Assembly (NCBI RefSeq): GCF_014083985.1
Contig: NZ_CP046907.1
Location: 4,874,501 to 4,938,500, forward strand
From: Streptomyces sp. SCUT-3
GTDB taxonomy: Bacteria; Actinomycetota; Actinomycetes; Streptomycetales; Streptomycetaceae
Direction of reading: 5' to 3'
DNA: 64,000 bases
Made by a program: the position numbers and the translations under genes. Below the pieces are notes generated by a model. The model saw nothing but the letters and a program-made list of their open reading frames with translations, did not search any database and was not told where the DNA came from. This document shows positions 6,931 to 49,548 of the stretch, one piece after another. The stretch's first letter is position 1, and every line of letters begins with the position of its first letter.

Positions 6931-8133
6931 ATGAAGACGATCGACGACCTGCAGGTCGCCGGCAAGCGGGTCTTCGTCCGCGCGGACCTCAACGTCCCGC
7001 TCGCGGACGGGGAGATCACCGACGACGGCCGCATCCGGGCCGCCGTGCCCACCATCGCGAAGCTGGCCGGGGCCGACGCCAAGGTGATCGTGGCCTCCCA
7101 CCTGGGCCGCCCCAAGGGCGCCCCCGACCCGCAGTTCTCCCTCGCCCCGGTGGCCCGGCGGCTGGGCGAACTGCTGGGCGAGGACGTGGCCTTCGCCACC
7201 GACACCGTCGGCGAGTCCGCCCGCGGGGCCGTGGCCGGCCTCGCCGACGGCGGCGTGGTCCTCCTGGAGAACCTGCGCTTCAACGCGGGCGAGACCGCCA
7301 AGGACGACGCCGAGCGCGGCGCCTTCGCCGACGAGCTCGCCTCCCTCGCCGACCTCTACGTCGGCGACGGCTTCGGGGCCGTGCACCGCAAGCACGCCTC
7401 GGTCTACGACCTCCCGGCCCGCCTGCCGCACGCGGCCGGGGGCCTGATCGCCACCGAGGTCGGGGTGCTCAGGAAGCTCACCGAGGACGTCGCGCGGCCC
7501 TACGCGGTCGTGCTCGGCGGGTCCAAGGTCTCCGACAAGCTCGGCGTCATCGACCACCTGATGGAGCGGGCCGACCGCATCCTGATCGGCGGCGGCATGG
7601 CGTACACCTTCCTCAAGGCCCAGGGCCACGGGATCGGCAGGTCGCTCCTCCAGGAGGACCAGATCCCGGCCGTCCTGGAGTACCTGGAGCGGGCGAAGGC
7701 CAAGGGTGTGGAGTTCGTCCTGCCGGTGGACGTGGTGGGCGCCCCCGAGTTCCCGGACCTCAAGACCAAGGCCCCGGCGAACCCGTCCACGGTCGACGCC
7801 GCGGACATCCCGGCGGACATGCTGGGCCTGGACATCGGCCCGCGGACCTGCGAGCTGTACGCCTCGAAGCTCGCCGACGCGGCCACCGTCTTCTGGAACG
7901 GGCCCATGGGCGTCTTCGAGCACCCCGACTACGCGGAGGGCACCCGGGCGGTCGCGCAGGCGCTCGCCGACAGCTCCGCGTTCACCGTCGTAGGCGGCGG
8001 CGACTCCGCCGCCGCCGTGCGCACGCTCGGCTTCGACGAGGCCGCGTTCGGCCACATCTCGACCGGCGGCGGCGCCAGCCTCGAGTACCTCGAGGGCAAG
8101 ACGCTCCCCGGCCTTGCCGCACTGGAGGACTGA
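6931..8133 (+). CDS. pgk: Phosphoglycerate kinase
   Basis: 400 residues, normal length. Transfers the acyl-phosphate of 1,3-bisphosphoglycerate to ADP, making ATP and 3-phosphoglycerate in the cytosol. Visible: the substrate loops RADLNVP and SHLGRPKG, LLENLRF, GDGFGAVHR, GGSKVSDKL, the nucleotide-binding NGPMGVFE and the C-terminal GGGDSAAAV followed by ISTGGGASLE. ATG start with AAGGAG about 12 nt upstream. tpiA follows after 9 bp, so the two are cotranscribed. Confidence 0.97.
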   Translation: MKTIDDLQVAGKRVFVRADLNVPLADGEITDDGRIRAAVPTIAKLAGADAKVIVASHLGRPKGAPDPQFSLAPVARRLGELLGEDVAFATDTVGESARGAVAGLADGGVVLLENLRFNAGETAKDDAERGAFADELASLADLYVGDGFGAVHRKHASVYDLPARLPHAAGGLIATEVGVLRKLTEDVARPYAVVLGGSKVSDKLGVIDHLMERADRILIGGGMAYTFLKAQGHGIGRSLLQEDQIPAVLEYLERAKAKGVEFVLPVDVVGAPEFPDLKTKAPANPSTVDAADIPADMLGLDIGPRTCELYASKLADAATVFWNGPMGVFEHPDYAEGTRAVAQALADSSAFTVVGGGDSAAAVRTLGFDEAAFGHISTGGGASLEYLEGKTLPGLAALED

Positions 8134-8142
8134 AGAACCGTC

Positions 8143-8922
8143 ATGACCACCACCCGCACCCCGCTGATGGCGGGCAACTGGAAGATGAACCTCAACCACC
8201 TCGAGGCCATCGCCCACGTCCAGAAGCTCGCCTTCGCGCTCACCGACAAGGACCATGACGCCGTCGAGGTCGCGGTCCTGCCGCCCTTCACCGACCTGCG
8301 GTCGGTGCAGACGCTGGTCGACGGCGACAGGCTGAGGATCAAGTACGGCGCCCAGGACGTCTCGCAGCACGACGCGGGCGCCTACACCGGCGAGGTCTCC
8401 GGCCCGATGCTGGCCAAGCTCAAGTGCACCTACGCGGCGATCGGCCACAGCGAGCGCCGCCAGTACCACGGCGAGGACGAGAAGATCGTCAACGCCAAGG
8501 TCAAGGCCGCCTTCCGCAACGGCATCGTGCCGATCCTGTGCGTCGGCGAGGGCCTGGACGTGCGCAGGGCCGGCGAGCAGGTGCCCTTCACCCTCGCCCA
8601 GGTCGACGGCGCGCTCGAGGGCGTTCCGGCCGAGCAGGCCGCGACGATCGTGATCGCCTACGAGCCGGTTTGGGCCATCGGCACCGGCGAGGTCGCCACG
8701 CCCGAGGACGCGCAGGAGGTCTGCGGCGCGATCCGCGCCCGGCTGGCCGAGCTGTACGGCCAGGAGGTGGCCCAGCAGGTGCGCGTCCTCTACGGCGGCT
8801 CCGTCAAGGGCTCCAACGCGCCGGGCATCATGGCGCAGCCCGACGTCGACGGTGCCCTGGTCGGCGGCGCCGCACTGGACGCCGACGACTTCGTGAAGAT
8901 CGTCCGCTACCGCGAGCAGTAG
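8143..8922 (+). CDS. tpiA: Triosephosphate isomerase
   Basis: 259 residues. Interconverts dihydroxyacetone phosphate and glyceraldehyde 3-phosphate. Catalytic residues are in place: K14 in GNWKMN, H102 in GHSERRQ and E174 in [10 protein letters not shown]; the phosphate-binding YGGSVKGSN is near the C-terminus. It starts 9 bp after the pgk stop, indicating a shared transcript. secG follows after 131 bp. Confidence 0.97.
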
Positions 8923-40940: not shown

Positions 40941-42194
40941 CTACAGCGCCGCGCCGCCGGGTTTGACCATGCCCCGCACGGTGCGGGCGTCGACGAACTC
41001 GCCCAGGGCGGTCATGTCCCACTCCCCGGAGAACTGCCGGACGAGCTTGCACATCAGCACGCCGGTGCGCGGCTCGGCGTTGGTCAGGTCGAAGCGGACC
41101 AGTTCCTCGCCGGTCGCCGCGTCGAACAGGCGGCAGTAGGCCTTGGCGACGTCGGTGAACCTCTGGCCGGAGAAGGAGTTGACGGTGAAGACCAGACCGG
41201 TGGCCTCGGCGGGGAGCCGGCCGAGGTCGACGCTGATCACCTCGTCGTCCCCGGCGCCCTCACCGGTGAGGTTGTCGCCGGAGTGCTGGATCGCGCCGCC
41301 GAGGATGGACAGCTTGCCGAAGTAGGCGTTGCCCAGCGACTTGCGCCGTGCGTCGTAGGCGATGACCGAGGCGTCCAGGTCGATGTTCTTGCCCCGGTAC
41401 GCCGGCTCCCAGCCCAGTCCCATGCGGACGGTGCTGAGCACCGGCCTGCCGCCCTTGACCAGGGAGACGGTCTGGTTCTTCTGCAGGCTGACCCGGCCCT
41501 TGTCCAGGTTGACCTTGCCCCCGACCGCGGGGGCTGCGGGCGCCGCGGGGGCCGCGGGGGCCGCGGGAGGAGGCGGCGGCCCGAACCCGGTGGGCGGCGC
41601 GGGCGGTGCGGGTGCCTGCGGGGCGGGCGGTGCCTGCGGGGCGGACGGCGCCTGGGGCGCGGGCGGAGCCTGCGGGGCGGCGGGGGCGGAGGGCTCCTCG
41701 ACGTTCACCCCGAAGTCGGTGGCGATGCCGCCCAGGCCGTTCGCGTACCCCTGGCCGACCGCGCGCACCTTCCAGGCCCCGGCCCGGCGGTACACCTCGA
41801 CGACCACCAGCGCGGTCTCGGTGCCGAGCCGGGGCGGGGTGAAGGTGGCGAGGACGCTCCCGTCGTCGGCGTTGCGCACGGTCGCGGTCGGTTCCGTGCC
41901 GGCGAAGGTGGCGCCCGGGGCGTCCAGGCTCGCCGTGACCACGACCTTGTCGATGTCGGCGGGCACGGCCGCGGTGTCCACCACGATCGCGTCGGGCGAG
42001 GCGCCCGCGCCGGCCCGGTGGCTCACACCGGGGCCGGCCGGCTGGTTGTAGAAGACGAAGTCGTCGTCGGAGCGGACCTTGCCGGCGGGGGTGAGGAGGA
42101 GGCCCGAGACGTCCAGCCGCTGCGGGGCGGTGACGTCCACCACCACCCTGGGAACGGGGAGCGGGAGGTTCGAGCCCGGTGTCATCCGGTTCAT
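40941..42194 (-). CDS. TerD-family stress protein with two TerD domains
   Basis: 417 residues, cytosolic. Two calcium-binding TerD-type domains (about 5-165 and 228-410) are joined by a ~60-residue Pro/Ala linker of PAPQAP-like repeats. The second domain is classical: LVKGGRPVLSTVRMGLGWEP, NIDLDASVIAYD, HSGDNLTGEGAGDDEVISVDL. The first is shorter and diverged (DDDFVFYNQP, SPDAIVVDTAAVPADIDKVVV). TerD proteins are linked to tellurite/oxidative stress and, in Streptomyces, to differentiation. No other ter genes nearby. ATG 42194 or 42185; both have weak ribosome sites. Confidence 0.9.
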   Translation of the reverse strand: MNRMTPGSNLPLPVPRVVVDVTAPQRLDVSGLLLTPAGKVRSDDDFVFYNQPAGPGVSHRAGAGASPDAIVVDTAAVPADIDKVVVTASLDAPGATFAGTEPTATVRNADDGSVLATFTPPRLGTETALVVVEVYRRAGAWKVRAVGQGYANGLGGIATDFGVNVEEPSAPAAPQAPPAPQAPSAPQAPPAPQAPAPPAPPTGFGPPPPPAAPAAPAAPAAPAVGGKVNLDKGRVSLQKNQTVSLVKGGRPVLSTVRMGLGWEPAYRGKNIDLDASVIAYDARRKSLGNAYFGKLSILGGAIQHSGDNLTGEGAGDDEVISVDLGRLPAEATGLVFTVNSFSGQRFTDVAKAYCRLFDAATGEELVRFDLTNAEPRTGVLMCKLVRQFSGEWDMTALGEFVDARTVRGMVKPGGAAL

Positions 42195-43453: not shown

Positions 43454-44224
43454 TCAGTCCACGGGTTTCCAGGTGCCGCAGGCAGTGGTCGAGAACGAGC
43501 CGTCGGTGGCCCGGACGGTCACGGTGAGGGGCCCGTCCGGGGTGCGGCCGCTCGCCGTGACCGGCCCGCTGTCGAGGACGGCCCCGGAGGCGTCCCTGCG
43601 CTCCCAGCGGCAGTCCCGGCTCCGGTTCCCGGTGCGGTAGGTGCCGGGGACGATCAGGGAGGAGTCGCCCGGGGCCGGTTCGCCGATCTCGAACTCGCCG
43701 TCGGCGTACCAGCGTTCGTAGACGCCGTTGAGGGCGTTCACCACGGTGTCGGCCCACCGGGGGCACAGGTCGCTTGCGCCGGCCCGCAACAGGGCCCTCC
43801 GGTCGGCGTCCGGCCTGTGGACCTCCGTCAGCCACTGGCCCCGGCTGCGGGTTTCGTCGCCGTCCCGGGACGCGAGCGTGTCGCACACCTGGTGCACGTA
43901 CGCGGCGGGGGAGGCGTACCCGGCTCCCGCCGTCCAGCCCTTCTGCCCGGCGAGGGCGTTCAGCCGGCCCTCCGGCGAGTCCGGGGGAGGACTGCTGCCG
44001 CGCCCCGGCGCGGTACCGCCGCTGCCGCCGCCCGTGTCACCGCCGCTGCCGCCGTCGTGTCCCGGCGCGGAGGTGGACGGTCCGGAGGCGGACGGCGCGG
44101 AGGTGGAGGGCGCGGAGGCCGAAGAGTCCGGCGGCCGTGGCCCGTCCTTCCCGCCGTCCGAGCAGCCGGTCACCAGTATCAGCCCCGCCGCCGCGGCGGC
44201 CCCTGTCGTCTGCAGACGTCCCAT
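43454..44224 (-). CDS. Putative lipoprotein of unknown function
   Basis: 256 residues. Lipobox LVTGC at about residue 22 after a short hydrophobic stretch; then ~75 residues of Ser/Pro/Gly-rich linker, then a domain of about 160 residues with conserved-looking Cys (HQVCDTL, SDLCPRW, RDCRWERR, TTACGTW) that may form two disulphides. No enzyme motif. Divergent from the beta-helix protein. I do not recognise the family. Confidence 0.75.
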   Translation of the reverse strand: MGRLQTTGAAAAAGLILVTGCSDGGKDGPRPPDSSASAPSTSAPSASGPSTSAPGHDGGSGGDTGGGSGGTAPGRGSSPPPDSPEGRLNALAGQKGWTAGAGYASPAAYVHQVCDTLASRDGDETRSRGQWLTEVHRPDADRRALLRAGASDLCPRWADTVVNALNGVYERWYADGEFEIGEPAPGDSSLIVPGTYRTGNRSRDCRWERRDASGAVLDSGPVTASGRTPDGPLTVTVRATDGSFSTTACGTWKPVD

Positions 44225-44507
44225 GACGCGAGACTTGCACCATTGCGGGCACCGGAAACACATTCCTGCCGTACCGGGGGAGTTGACGGCGAGTACCGGC
44301 CGGCTGCGGGCGCGGGCGCGCGGTTCCCGGAAAGAGGGAATCTTCCGCGACCGCGGCCGAAACGTTATCCGGCGTCGGTAGACTCCGCGGACCGTGGGCC
44401 CGGCCCCTTCCGGGGGCCGGCGGCAACAGGCGAACAGGGAACGGAAGTACAGGGAACGGACCGAGTACCGCCCGGCCCACGGGCAGCTCACGAGAGAGGC
44501 AATCACC

Positions 44508-45719
44508 GTGTCGCGCAGGCGCAGACGTGGACGTCACCGCCGCCCCCGTACGCTCTCGCTCACCGCGGTCGCCGTGGTGGCCTCGGCCGCCGCGGGCGTG
44601 TACCTCACCGCCTCGCCCCGGGACGCCGGTGCGGCCGAGACCACGGTCGTCGTCTCCCCCGACGGGGACGACGCCAACACCGGCAGCGTGGGCTTCCCGT
44701 TCAGGACCCTGGAGAAGGCGCTCTCCGTGGCCCGGCCCGGCACCACCGTCCGGGTCCGCGGGGGCACGTACCGCCCGTCGGAGACGCTCAGGAGCAGCGT
44801 CGACGGCAGCCCGGAGCAGCGGATCACCGTCGTCCCCCACGGTTCGGAGGACGTCAGGGTCGACGGCTCCGCGCTGCCGGACGGGGCGTCGCTGCTGGAG
44901 CTGTCGGCGGACTACTGGACGGTCTCCGGCATCGAGTTCCGCAACGCCCCCGGCCGGGGCGTGGTGTGCACCTCCTGCACCGGCGGCCTCTTCGAGGACC
45001 TGGCCGTGCACGACAACGGCGGCAACGGGTTCACCCTGCGCGGCCACGGCACCGACGACAACCTGGTGCGGAACCTGGACTCCTACGGCAACCACGACGA
45101 CGCCACCGGCGGCCGGCGCGCGGACGGCATCGCCTTCACCTCGGGGTCGGGCACGGGCAACCGGATCACCGGGGCGCGGGTGTTCGACAACTCCGACGAC
45201 GGTGTCGACCTGTGGATGTGGGCCGACCCGGTGACGGTCGAGCGCACCTGGGCGTTCGGCAACGGCAAGGACCGCTGGGGCATCCCCGGCTTCGAGGGCG
45301 AGGGCAACGGCTTCAGGCTCGGGGGCGGCGACCCGGCCCCGTCCGCGGCGCACGTGGTCAACGACTCGGCCGCCTGGGACAACGCCCTGCACGGGTTCAC
45401 CGAGAGCGGCAACACCGGTGGACTGCTGCTCGCCCGCACCACCGCCTACGCCAACGGCGCCCGCGGCTACTACTTCCCCACCTCCGCGACCCGCCTGGTG
45501 GAGAACCTCGCGGTCGCCAACACCGCCGGCAAGGCGACCACGGGCGACGCGGTCCTCTCGCAGGGCAACAACTGGGACGAGGGCGTCGGCACCCCGGCCT
45601 TCGCCGGCACCGACGCCACCGCGGTCCGCGGCCCCAGGGCCGCCGACGGCTCCCTGCCCGACACGGGTTTCCTGCGGACCGACGGCGAGGAGGCCATCGG
45701 GGTGACCGGGGGACTGTGA
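44508..45719 (+). CDS. Secreted PL9-like right-handed beta-helix protein
   Basis: 403 residues. Signal anchor (LSLTAVAVVASAAAGVYLTA), then VVVSPDGDDANTGSVGFPFRTLEKAL, the opening of pectate-lyase-like beta-helices. The PL9 calcium site is reproduced with exact spacing: D206, D230, D231, D234, equivalent to D209, D233, D234, D237 of Pel9A. The position of its catalytic K273 is R270 here (GNGFRLGG), so lyase activity is uncertain. GTG 44508 with AGAGAGG upstream; a longer reading would put non-signal sequence in front. Confidence 0.85.
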   Translation: MSRRRRRGRHRRPRTLSLTAVAVVASAAAGVYLTASPRDAGAAETTVVVSPDGDDANTGSVGFPFRTLEKALSVARPGTTVRVRGGTYRPSETLRSSVDGSPEQRITVVPHGSEDVRVDGSALPDGASLLELSADYWTVSGIEFRNAPGRGVVCTSCTGGLFEDLAVHDNGGNGFTLRGHGTDDNLVRNLDSYGNHDDATGGRRADGIAFTSGSGTGNRITGARVFDNSDDGVDLWMWADPVTVERTWAFGNGKDRWGIPGFEGEGNGFRLGGGDPAPSAAHVVNDSAAWDNALHGFTESGNTGGLLLARTTAYANGARGYYFPTSATRLVENLAVANTAGKATTGDAVLSQGNNWDEGVGTPAFAGTDATAVRGPRAADGSLPDTGFLRTDGEEAIGVTGGL

Positions 45720-45872: not shown

Positions 45873-45917
45873 GTGCCCGGCCCGGGGCCGTGCCCGGCCC
45901 GGGGCCGTGCCCGGCCT
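45873..45917 (+). repeat. 17-bp tandem repeat
   Basis: GTGCCCGGCCCGGGGCC repeated 2.6 times directly after the ectD stop. Simple G+C repeat, no known role. Confidence 0.8.
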
Positions 45918-46825
45918 CAGGCCTTGCGGCTGACGGGGGTGAAGTCGCGGGCGCCGATGAACTCGGGCCTGCGCACAGGGGCGGCGAAGGGTTCGACCGC
46001 GGCGTTCTCGACGCTGTTGAAGACGATGAAGACGTTGCTGCGCGGGTAGGGCGTGATGTTGTCGCCGGAGCCGTGCATGGCGTTGCAGTCGAACATCGTG
46101 GCCGAGCCGGCGGGGCCGGTGAACAGGCGGATGCCGTGGGCGTCGGCCATCCTCGTCAGGGCCTCGTCGGAGGGGGTGCCGGCGTCCTGCATCTGCAGGG
46201 ACTTCTTGTAGTTGTCCCGGGGGGTCTCGCCCGCGCAGCCGACGAAGGTCCTGTGGGAGCCCGGCATGATCATCAGCCCGCCGTTGGTGGGCAGGTTCTC
46301 GGTCAGCGCGATGGAGATCGAGACGGTGCGCATGCGGGGCAGGCCGTCCTCGGCGTGCCAGGTCTCGAAGTCGGAGTGCCAGTAGAAGCCGCTGGCGCCG
46401 AAACCGGGCTTGACGTTGACGCGGCTCTGGTGGACGTAGACGTCGGAGCCGAGGATCTGCCGGGCGCGGTCGAGGACGCGGGGGTCGCTGACCAGCTCGG
46501 CGAAGACCTCGCTGACCTTGTGGATCTCGAAGATCGAGCGGATCGACTCGGACTTGGGCTCCACGACGGAGCGCTCGTCGGCCCGCATGACGGGGTCGGC
46601 GCACAGGCGGTCGAGCTCGGCCTTGTAGCGGGCGACCTCGTCGGGGGCGAGGAGCCGGTCGACGGTGAGGAAGCCGTCGTGCTCGAAGCCGGCCAGGTCC
46701 TCCGGGGAGACGGGGCCGGGGGTGCCCGGGGCGGACCAGACGACCGGGTCCTGTCGGGCGGTCAGCACCTCGCTCGTGCCACGGGTGGGATACAGGTCCG
46801 CGATGCGTTCGGGTGCCGTGGTCAT
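45917..46825 (-). CDS. ectD: Ectoine hydroxylase
   Basis: 302 residues. Non-haem iron, 2-oxoglutarate-dependent dioxygenase making 5-hydroxyectoine. Iron ligands H150 and D152 (FYWHSDFETWH) and H251 (NAMHGSGDN) match those of known EctD enzymes. GGAGAGGA before the ATG. Last gene of ectABCD, read on the minus strand after ectC (83-bp gap). Confidence 0.97.
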   Translation of the reverse strand: MTTAPERIADLYPTRGTSEVLTARQDPVVWSAPGTPGPVSPEDLAGFEHDGFLTVDRLLAPDEVARYKAELDRLCADPVMRADERSVVEPKSESIRSIFEIHKVSEVFAELVSDPRVLDRARQILGSDVYVHQSRVNVKPGFGASGFYWHSDFETWHAEDGLPRMRTVSISIALTENLPTNGGLMIMPGSHRTFVGCAGETPRDNYKKSLQMQDAGTPSDEALTRMADAHGIRLFTGPAGSATMFDCNAMHGSGDNITPYPRSNVFIVFNSVENAAVEPFAAPVRRPEFIGARDFTPVSRKA

Positions 46826-46908
46826 GAGGGTGTCCTCTCCTTCTTGCTGATGACGGGAGTCTGCGGGGCCGGGGCCCCGGCCGGCCCGGCCGGGGCCCCC
46901 GGGCGCAG

Positions 46909-47358
46909 TCAGGCGGAGGCGGCCTCCGCGGCGTGCGCCGCAGCGGCCTCGGCCCGCTCGGGAAGGGGCTCGGTCAGCAGGGGGTACACGCCGTTCTCGT
47001 CGTGGACCTCGCGGCCGGTGACCGGGGGGTTGAACACGCAGACGAAGCGCAGGTCCGTCTTGGGCCGCATCGTGTGCTTCTCGTGGCCGTCGAGCAGGTA
47101 CATGGTGCCGGGGGAGATCCAGTGCTTCTCGCCGGTCTCGTCGTTGGTCAGCTCCCCCTCGCCCTCGACGCACAGCACCGCCTCGTAGTGGTTGGCGTAC
47201 CACATGGAGGTCTCGGTGCCCGCGTACATCACCGTCTCGTGCAGGGAGAAGCCCACGCCCTCCTTTGCCAGGACGATGCGCTTGCTGCGCCAGGTGCCGG
47301 TCTCGGCGGTCACGTCGCGGTCGGTGCCCTCGATGTCCTTGAAGGAACGAACGATCAC
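46909..47358 (-). CDS. ectC: Ectoine synthase
   Basis: 149 residues, cupin fold. Cyclises N-gamma-acetyl-diaminobutyrate to ectoine. Visible: [68 protein letters not shown] with metal-binding His, and [20 protein letters not shown]. The terminal ~15 residues are Ala/Glu-rich. GTG 47358 gives the family N-terminus. Confidence 0.97.
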
Positions 47359-47442
47359 GTTTGATGCACTGCCTTTCTGTGGCTCTCTGTGGTTGCGTCT
47401 GCCCGCCGTGCCGGGAGGAATGCCCGGCCGGACGGTGCCCGG

Positions 47443-48711
47443 TCAGACGGTGTCGCGGACGGCGCGGGTCAGGATGCGCAGGCCCTCGTCGAGCTCCTCG
47501 GGGGTGGTGGTCAGCGCGGGCAGGAGCTTGACGACCTCGCTCTCGGGACCGGAGGTCTCGATCAGCAGGCCGAGTTCGAAGGCGCGGGCGCTCACCTTGG
47601 CGGCGCGGGCCTTGTCGGCGAACTCCAGGCCCCAGACCAGGCCGCGGCCGCGGTGCTCGACGACCTCGGAGCTGTGCTCGGCGGCGATGGTGCGCAGCGC
47701 CTGCTCGACCTGCTCGCCGCGGGCCAGGGTCTGCTTCTCCATCTGCCCGTCGGCCCAGTAGGTGTCCAGGGCGGCGGTGGCGGTGACGAAGGCGGGGTTG
47801 TTGCCGCGGAAGGTGCCGTTGTGCTCGCCCGGCTCCCACAGGTCCAGCTCCGGCTTGAACAGGGTCAGCGACATGGGCATGCCGTACCCGCCGATGGACT
47901 TCGACAGGGTGACGATGTCCGGGGTGATGCCGGCCTCCTCGAAGGAGAAGAACGGCCCGGTGCGGCCGCAGCCCATCTGGATGTCGTCGACGATGAGCAG
48001 CATGTCGCGGCGCTCGCACAGGTCGGCCAGGGCGCGCAGCCACTCCGGGCGGGCGACGTTGATGCCGCCCTCGCCCTGGACGGTCTCCACGATCACCGCG
48101 GCCGGGTGGTTCAGGCCGGAGCCGGAGTCCTCCAGCAGCCGCTCGAACCACAGGAAGTCCGGGACCTTGCCGTCGAAGTAGTTGTCGAACGGCATGGGGG
48201 TGCCGTGGACCAGCGGGATGCCGGCGCCGGCCCGCTTGAAGGCGTTGCCGGTCACCGCCAGCGAGCCCAGCGACATGCCGTGGAAGGCGTTGGTGAACGA
48301 GACGATCGACTCGCGCCCCTTGGCCTTGCGGGCGAGCTTGAGCGCGGCCTCGACGGCGTTGGTGCCCGTGGGGCCGGGGAACATCACCTTGTAGTCGAGG
48401 TCGCGGGGCTTGAGGATCACCTCGTCGAAGGACTCCAGGAACGCGCGCTTGGCCGTGGTGGACATGTCCAGGCCGTGGGTGACGCCGTCGTGCTCGAGGT
48501 AGTCCAGCAGGGCCCGTTTCAGGACCGGGTTGTTGTGCCCGTAGTTCAGGGCCCCGGCGCCGGAGAAGAAGTCCAGGTAGACGTGGCCGTCCTCGTCGAA
48601 CATGCGGCTGCCCTGCGCGCGGTCGAACACGGCCGGCCAGCTGCGGCAGTAGCTGCGCACCTCGGACTCGAGGGTTTCGAAGACGGCGGTCGCGGGCGGG
48701 GTGATGGTCAC
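47443..48711 (-). CDS. ectB: Diaminobutyrate-2-oxoglutarate transaminase
   Basis: 422 residues, class III aminotransferase. Makes L-2,4-diaminobutyrate from aspartate semialdehyde. PLP lysine K271 (TLSKSIGGYG); also FFSGAGALNYGHNNP, FPGPTGTNAVEAALKLAR, VETVQGEGGINVA and DDIQMGCGRTG. GTG 48711 with AAGGAG upstream matches VTITPPATAVFETLESEV of relatives. Confidence 0.97.
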   Translation of the reverse strand: MTITPPATAVFETLESEVRSYCRSWPAVFDRAQGSRMFDEDGHVYLDFFSGAGALNYGHNNPVLKRALLDYLEHDGVTHGLDMSTTAKRAFLESFDEVILKPRDLDYKVMFPGPTGTNAVEAALKLARKAKGRESIVSFTNAFHGMSLGSLAVTGNAFKRAGAGIPLVHGTPMPFDNYFDGKVPDFLWFERLLEDSGSGLNHPAAVIVETVQGEGGINVARPEWLRALADLCERRDMLLIVDDIQMGCGRTGPFFSFEEAGITPDIVTLSKSIGGYGMPMSLTLFKPELDLWEPGEHNGTFRGNNPAFVTATAALDTYWADGQMEKQTLARGEQVEQALRTIAAEHSSEVVEHRGRGLVWGLEFADKARAAKVSARAFELGLLIETSGPESEVVKLLPALTTTPEELDEGLRILTRAVRDTV

Positions 48712-48881
48712 AGCCGGTGCACTCCTTGGGTGAGAGGGGTCGTGCGGATTCGTCGTACGGAGGGGCGTCGCGTGCGCGGCGGCGGTCCGGGCGTGGGCCG
48801 TCCGGGTGCCGGGCGCGCGGCGGTGCGGCGGCGGGCCGCAGGGGAGGCGGCCGCCGTGCCGGTGGTCTCGGGGGCCGGGCG

Positions 48882-49424
48882 TCAGTCCCGGGCGAGCGGC
48901 CCGATGCGGTACAGCACCTCGGGCTCGTGCTCGTCGGGGAACAGCCCGCCGTGGAACAGCACCTCGCGCTCCACGGCGGCGCGGTGGCGCTCGCCGAAGG
49001 AGGTGAAGAGCCGGTTGGAGGCGGTGTTGTCGGGGGAGATGGTGGTCTCCACCTGCCGCACGCCGTGGGGGCGCAGCCGCTCGGCCAGCGCGTCGAGCAT
49101 CGCGGCGGCCAGGCCCCGGCCGCGCTGCGAGTCGTCGACGGCGACCTGCCAGACGACCAGGGTGTCCGGCCGCTCCGGGCGGATGTAGCCGGTGGTGAAG
49201 CCGACCGGCTCGCCGTCCGCCCCGCGCACCACGACGGAGGTCCGGGCGAAGTCCCGGCACCACAGCAGGTAGGCGTAGGAGGAGTTCAGGTCCAGTGCCC
49301 CGGAGTCGCGGGCGATCCGCCAGATCGCGGCTCCGTCCTCCACCCGGGGCCGGTCCAGCTTCGGTTCCGTGTCCGTTCCGTCTGCATGGCGATCGTGTGC
49401 GAGTTCAGCTTGTGCGGCGGTCAT
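48882..49424 (-). CDS. ectA: L-2,4-diaminobutyrate N-acetyltransferase
   Basis: 180 residues, GNAT fold. Acetylates diaminobutyrate, second step of ectoine synthesis. Visible: PRVEDGAAIWRIARDSGALDLNSSYAYLLWCRDF, acetyl-CoA loop VDDSQRGRGLAAAML and TTISPDNTASNRLFTSF. ATG 49424 is chosen over a start 57 bp upstream, which lies in A+T-rich promoter-like DNA. First gene of the operon; salt or osmotic control is expected from other streptomycetes. Confidence 0.95.
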   Translation of the reverse strand: MTAAQAELAHDRHADGTDTEPKLDRPRVEDGAAIWRIARDSGALDLNSSYAYLLWCRDFARTSVVVRGADGEPVGFTTGYIRPERPDTLVVWQVAVDDSQRGRGLAAAMLDALAERLRPHGVRQVETTISPDNTASNRLFTSFGERHRAAVEREVLFHGGLFPDEHEPEVLYRIGPLARD

Positions 49425-49548
49425 GCGTAATGAACTTACCCAGCAAAAAAAGAGAATGCATCGGGGAAAGCCCTTTCGCAAAAAGCGGGGAAGTGTTATC
49501 GCGCGGGCGTGTGCGGCTGCGCGGAACGGCTCACCGACGGGCTTTTTG

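Follow-up and report, generated by a model that had tools for sequence, protein, structure and literature searches.

The window, that is, the whole stretch of 64,000 nucleotides analysed here, contains a gene for a PL9-like beta-helix protein which, judging from alignments, is one tip of a lineage in which the PL9 active site has been altered around an intact calcium site. Our preferred reading, to which we give a probability of roughly 0.45, is that the protein is a pseudo-lyase, with the PL9 catalytic machinery lost and the calcium site retained, that binds an acidic glycan. A calcium ion in the cleft would dock a carboxylate of an acidic polysaccharide such as pectate or some other polymer of uronates, W238 might serve as a sugar platform, abstraction of the C5 proton by lysine would no longer take place, and the protein would bind or present the glycan instead of cutting it. 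We infer the calcium binding, the glycan binding and the lack of activity of the window protein.

A PL9-like beta-helix protein

The gene and the putative export signal of its product are located as follows.

44508..45719, + strand: 403-aa right-handed beta-helix protein, PL9-like (Pel9A-like), with a GTG start (translation, Pfam, phmmer and structural model)
44508..44633, + strand: putative export signal, aa 1-42, with an Arg-rich N-terminus, a hydrophobic stretch and AGA-AE (read from the sequence; pLDDT below 50 at residues 1-41)

The protein is probably secreted. The opposite strand and the other long overlapping frames at the locus were taken as normal for a high-GC genome.

Pfam analysis finds PF22842 (Pel9A-like beta-helix) in the window protein with an E-value of 2.2e-16 and 60.2 bits against a cut-off of 25.2, along with further matches to Beta_helix and DUF1565. 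In a phmmer search Pel9A (1RU4) aligns with residues 47-393 at an E-value of 1.4e-37, and it is on these two matches that the assignment as a PL9 homologue is based. The next solved relative is the Bacteroides rhamnogalacturonan lyase 5OLQ (1.2e-18), and a profile of 11 sequences gives 5.8e-51 for 1RU4 and 8.7e-27 for 5OLQ. The cut-offs of the NCBIfam entries PelN (NF041899, 72.6 bits against 740) and PelX (NF041903, 60.7 bits against 1490) were missed. Because R270 replaces the catalytic base Lys273 of Pel9A, the label of PL9 pectate lyase was withheld and the protein is filed, on its sequence, as PL9-homologous.

The AlphaFold2 model (window protein with ten relatives; pLDDT 80, pTM 0.81) is a right-handed parallel beta-helix in the arrangement of Pel9A. 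VIA-align places 1RU4 on top (Z 44.9 over 352 residues, rmsd 2.6), with 5OLR and 5OLQ at Z 44.6 and 44.3 and the entry after them at Z 32.5; Foldseek likewise ranks 1RU4 and 5OLR/5OLQ highest. Both lists include many other beta-helix proteins and are evidence for fold, not function. The model strands 206-213, 233-238, 269-271 and 297-299 hold or adjoin the key residues, and the model would place T211, W238, R270 and S300 near the calcium cleft.

Calcium site and catalytic position

Alignment with Pel9A locates the residues of the primary calcium site and the position of the base.

45123..45125, + strand: D206, aligned with the Pel9A calcium ligand D209 (multiple alignments)
45195..45200, + strand: D230 and D231, opposite Pel9A D233 and D234 (multiple alignments)
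45207..45209, + strand: D234, aligned with Pel9A D237 (multiple alignments)
45315..45317, + strand: R270 (codon AGG), at the position of the Pel9A base K273 (phmmer and multiple alignments)

The aspartates following D206 lie at offsets of 24, 25 and 28 from it and R270 at an offset of 64, exactly as in residues 209/233/234/237 and K273 of Pel9A. This agreement in spacing, noticed in the original prediction, is not due to chance, since both the phmmer match and the multiple alignments pair the same positions. R270 faces residue 248 of the Pel9A chain, which an offset of 25 turns into K273; the same offset turns chain residues D184/208/209/212 into D209/233/234/237, and by alignment all four aspartates of the primary site (Asp209/233/234/237) are present in the window protein. 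We take Pel9A D234 to be a calcium ligand. The motif GNGFRLGG stands opposite GNGFKLGG, and no other lysine falls on the K273 column in the window protein, so the predicted placement of R270 at the position of the base stands as well.

The review PMC10992409 gives K273 as the base and D209, D233 and D237 as calcium ligands, and PMC6627557 describes a lysine in coil 7 as the base. PMC6796002 and PMC4319962 are further sources for Pel9A and the B. thetaiotaomicron lyase. In the window protein this conserved catalytic residue is lost and the fold is kept, which is the pattern of a pseudoenzyme.

Pel9A of Dickeya/Erwinia chrysanthemi (1RU4, PL9), about 30% identical to the window protein, resembles it in fold, in the spacing of the four calcium aspartates and in the GNGF-LGG motif, but K273 is replaced by R270, K214 by T211 and N301 by S300. 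The B. thetaiotaomicron rhamnogalacturonan lyase (5OLQ/5OLR, PL9) also shares the fold and the pattern of calcium aspartates and has no lysine facing T211; unlike the window protein, it carries Lys at the position of the base and Asn at that of S300.

A different explanation is that the protein is an active lyase in which Arg270 acts as Bronsted base in place of Lys273, perhaps with another pH optimum or substrate. The gene in the window is intact and retains all four calcium aspartates. The earlier description of arginine as a poor general base is only half right because, as was allowed for at the time, arginine serves as the base of other pectate lyases: Table 4 of PMC10992409 lists it for PDB 2EWE, 2V8K and 1GXO, and a remark in the PL9 paper PMC6627557 suggests that lysine may be a less potent base than arginine. 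This use of arginine elsewhere counts against a pseudo-lyase. However, the relatives of the window protein and further changed residues in it, both described below, make an arginine base unlikely.

Relatives of the window protein

Matches to the window protein were found in at least 125 of 394 genomes of the family (E <= 1e-10), in 21 of 394 genomes of the class (E <= 1e-30) and, with E <= 1e-60, in at least 117 of the 392 that belong to the genus of G338, by inference Streptomyces. One scan of genome contigs gave 12 loci, nine of them from close Streptomyces relatives. The window genome has one PL9 gene, and its genus is represented by one genome in the collection. Extraction of sequences was not exhaustive and covered 30 loci and 80 regions of the matches in family genomes and 30 loci of the matches in the genus of G338. 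From the extracted loci 153 distinct rows were aligned, the window protein and Pel9A included and 12 fragment rows and identical sequences left out.

Position 270 is occupied by Lys in 121 of these rows, Gln in 17, Thr in seven, Glu in six and Arg in two; arginine is rare at the position of the base. The second Arg row, L133, comes from a sigma-fused protein that lacks two calcium aspartates and stands apart in the tree, at the end of a long branch. Another gene of the window Arg type was seen neither among the sequences extracted from the family (394), class (394) and G338-genus (392) genomes, which are overlapping sets, nor at E <= 1e-128 in 396 relatives that overlap with the other sets.

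The closest relatives of the window protein form a sister clade of 16 sequences, 56-61% identical to it, all of which carry Gln at 270. The grouping of the window protein with this clade has an ultrafast bootstrap of 98 and an SH-aLRT of 91 in a tree of 39 rows chosen for diversity with the trait columns removed, and an SH-aLRT of 96 with 65 rows. These Gln-type Streptomyces PL9 proteins (S. himastatinicus, S. hygroscopicus and kin; L002-L009, L143 and L146-L152, where L numbers denote loci) share with the window protein T211, W238, R204 and the absence of Lys270, and differ from it in having Gln at 270, S267 instead of N267 and G300 instead of S300. Arginine had been put forward as the possible mark of a clade and an alignment suggested as the check; the idea was rejected because the nearest relatives carry Gln (16/16), and it has no second window-type Arg gene among the extracted sequences on its side. 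The different replacement of residue 270 on the two sides of one node, Arg on one and Gln on the other, supports a pseudo-lyase.

The sister of the combined group is a Lys-type group, and nested inside it are the Glu rows together with a single Gln row, L073. The Thr rows and L133 form a distant group in which the placement of L133 is unsure owing to its long branch. At least eight changes among the five states are needed on the 39-row tree and at least five between Lys and not-Lys, counted without direction. Because the tree needs this many changes, departure from Lys at the position of the base is recurrent. In the open-access literature searched we did not find a PL9 protein with a changed base or an inactive PL9 protein.

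Other altered residues

Four further positions, read against Pel9A or against the Lys-type rows, are given here.

45117..45119, + strand: R204, a basic residue two before the first calcium Asp, found in the window protein and 16/16 Gln rows and in 0/121 Lys rows
45138..45140, + strand: T211, corresponding to Pel9A K214; Lys in 118/121 Lys-type rows, Thr in 16/16 Gln rows
45219..45221, + strand: W238, common to 16/16 Gln rows; in 113 Lys rows Phe 107, Trp 5, Tyr 1
45405..45407, + strand: S300, corresponding to Pel9A N301; Asn in 118/121 Lys-type rows, Gly in 16/16 Gln rows

Among 113 Lys rows K211, N300 and F238 are conserved at 99%, 99% and 95%, respectively. In raw counts uncorrected for kinship, 118 of 121 Lys rows have K211 and 118 have N300, while of the 32 other rows 8 have K211 and 5 have N300. 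The four calcium aspartates are kept in the window protein and all 16 Gln sequences (17/17), and it is from these same 17 that the equivalents of K214 and N301 are gone, which supports a pseudo-lyase.

This loss, together with the 16/16 Gln of the sister clade, a residue that is no plausible base, and with the isolated occurrence of the window-type arginine among the sequences extracted (L133 being sigma-fused and without two calcium aspartates), argues against Arg270 as the base. The original prediction had named an inactive binder, a lyase with a shifted pH range and an enzyme for another substrate. These were the right options, but the arginine is not the whole story, since the K214 and N301 equivalents are gone too, and for that reason an active site that has been lost or redesigned seems more likely than a lyase using arginine at a shifted pH.

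On supported branches only three independent pairs bear on a coupling between the loss of Lys270 and that of K211/N300, which is not significant, and one Lys-type row carries T211 and G300, contrary to a strict link. In 5OLQ both the Lys base and the Asn are present, but in alignments no lysine faces T211, with a 7-residue insert intervening. Because this rhamnogalacturonan lyase has no lysine at that point, K214 of Pel9A may have more to do with substrate than with catalysis. That K214 is not necessarily essential, and that the one Lys-type row exists, counts against a pseudo-lyase.

H196, D198, R204, M237 and W238 are found in the window protein and in 16/16 Gln rows and in fewer than 10% of the Lys rows (D198 and R204 in 0/113, H196 in 5/113). 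This raises the possibility that the window protein and the Gln clade are neofunctionalised lyases which cut another uronate polymer with a base that has moved elsewhere, such as R204 or H196 beside the calcium site. R204, H196 and D198 lie near the first calcium Asp in the sequence, occur in the same 17 sequences and could form a new active site, which speaks against a pseudo-lyase, and the four calcium aspartates have been kept. However, such a relocated base was seen in no homologue or structure, and we regard this explanation as rather unlikely.

Codons, selection and order of events

Codon 270 of the window gene, AGG, differs by a single nucleotide from AAG (Lys) and by two from CAG (Gln). 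Lys is encoded by AAG in 103 of 119 Lys rows examined and by AAA in the rest, and Gln by CAG in 14 of 16 rows and by CAA in the others. In 16 window genes AGG accounts for 5% of the codons for Arg, as against 6 of 35 in the PL9-like gene, and the argument from this codon for the order of events has modest weight. The simplest story would be a common ancestor whose cleft was already altered, followed by two separate replacements of Lys, one by Arg and one by Gln; it is favoured because AGG is one step from AAG and because T211 and W238 are shared. A route from Arg to Gln through CGG is also conceivable.

Median pairwise dN/dS (Nei-Gojobori, without correction for codon bias) is 0.40 in the Gln clade, 0.40 for the Glu rows with L073 and 0.43 for the Thr rows, as compared with 0.25 among Lys pairs more than 80% identical. 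The groups without Lys thus appear to be constrained, but more loosely than the Lys pairs. Between the window gene and the Gln rows dS is 0.48-0.59 and dN 0.32-0.38, values too uncertain for judging the window branch alone. The retention of the four calcium aspartates in all 17 sequences and the constraint on the Gln clade support the reading of the window protein as a pseudo-lyase that binds its ligand.

Genomic setting

The PL9-like gene is flanked by a divergent 350-aa ORF and by ectoine genes on the opposite strand. The ORF (43454-44506, - strand) has a low-complexity stretch, a lipoprotein-like motif (LVTGC) and no Pfam match. The ectoine/hydroxyectoine set (45917-49481, - strand) is convergent with the PL9-like gene and consists of PhyH/EctD-like, ectoine synthase, class-III aminotransferase and GNAT acetyltransferase genes. 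Farther away, a TerD-domain protein with a long Ala/Pro-rich linker is encoded at 40941-42194 (- strand).

Neither PL1 (PF00544) nor GH28 (PF00295) has a match in the window genome, and the controls were matched; PL3 (PF03211) gave no match in the window genome and none in the control genomes either. The lack of PL1 and GH28, the ectoine neighbours and the single PL9 gene were counted in favour of a pseudo-lyase. There is a precedent in beetles, where, as PMC6549527 reports, inactive GH28 relatives belong to the pectin-digesting pathway. These too are relatives of a pectinase without activity, as is presumed for the window protein, but they belong to another family, are eukaryotic and had their function tested by gene silencing (PMC6549527).

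A genome without PL1 or GH28, and an Arg form found once in its group, would also suit a decaying relic, whose function has been lost in the window genome with the gene still undisrupted. However, the full-length frame, the export-like N-terminus and the intact calcium residues do not look like decay, and the sister clade is constrained (dN/dS 0.40), so that a relic seems improbable.

Ten genomes of the Gln clade were checked, and in each a single PL9 gene exceeds the Pfam cut-off; PL1 matches occur in 6 of these 10 and in 8 of 9 Lys- or Glu-type genomes. Four Gln loci (L002, L003, L004 and L008) were scanned. In L002 and L003 the gene immediately upstream is a PL1 gene, in L004 the PL1 gene lies two genes upstream, with a polysaccharide deacetylase gene between, and in L008 the two upstream genes scanned are of other kinds. 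A pectin setting has thus been retained in part by the Gln form, and the window gene shows none. The partial setting argues against complete loss of the pectin link; the PL1 genes of L002, L003 and L004, as a pectin-degrading setting, tell against a pseudo-lyase and are in keeping with a lyase that has relocated its base.

Glu at the position of the base was observed in L010:5857-7164, L025:1417-2640, L027:118-2655, L051:3513-4772, L055:3169-4476 and L058:3332-4639, and Gln outside the sister clade in L073:2979-4295. The Glu copy of L010 lacks one calcium Asp and has a PL3 gene and a Lys-type PL9 nearby. In genomes G138, G312, G376, G171 and G357 the Glu or Gln copy has, by coordinates, two to four PL1 matches no more than 20 kb away. 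Disrupted copies also occur: the second PL9 copy of L070 (7350-8680) is split over the overlapping frames 7350-8114 and 7481-8680 in a frameshift-like manner, and PL9 copies of G388 and G184, among others, contain an in-frame stop.

A wider pattern and fusions to sigma factors

We tentatively propose, with somewhat less than even confidence, that in Actinobacteria the PL9 fold has lost its catalytic lysine several times and been put to a new, non-catalytic use, the recognition of acidic polysaccharides. It would be found both in free secreted proteins with most or all of the calcium site, such as the Arg form of the window, the Gln clade and those Glu forms that have pectinase genes nearby, and in membrane-bound ECF sigma factors, where it would be the outer domain of a one-protein pectin sensor. 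Family-based annotation would label such proteins pectate lyases, and with the base absent this may be wrong for some of them. Proteins of this kind that bind without cutting would be natural calcium-dependent binders of pectin or other uronates, usable as probes, and would show a route from lyase to receptor. The natural series of Lys, Arg, Gln, Glu and Thr at one position of one fold offers a test of the base requirement of PL9, and the fused sigma factors a testable route from extracellular polysaccharide to gene expression.

The window protein itself is not such a fusion, as no sigma domain was found in it by Pfam scan (E <= 0.001). Among the distant relatives, ten PL9-like proteins (L083, L085, L086, L106, L107, L110-L113 and L133) are fused to an ECF-type sigma factor. 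In the open-access literature searched, no ECF sigma factor was found whose outer domain is PL9-like or a beta-helix. PMC5826349 describes ECF52 sigma factors with a zinc finger, a membrane segment, a proline-rich stretch and a carbohydrate-binding module, and PMC10766802 mentions that glycosyl hydrolase domains are predicted for some members of ECF52/53. In layout the fusions resemble the ECF52 plan (PMC5826349), and from their sequences they look like membrane-bound one-protein polysaccharide sensors. All ten have sigma-70 region 2 (Sigma70_r2) ahead of a degenerate C-terminal PL9-like helix and an HxxxCxxC motif between the two, and nine have a hydrophobic stretch of 19 residues (mean Kyte-Doolittle >= 1.7) before the helix, the exception being L107. 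Eight of the ten are without the Lys and without two of the four calcium aspartates, and the remaining two, L083 and L085, keep the Lys and are without two and one of the aspartates, respectively.
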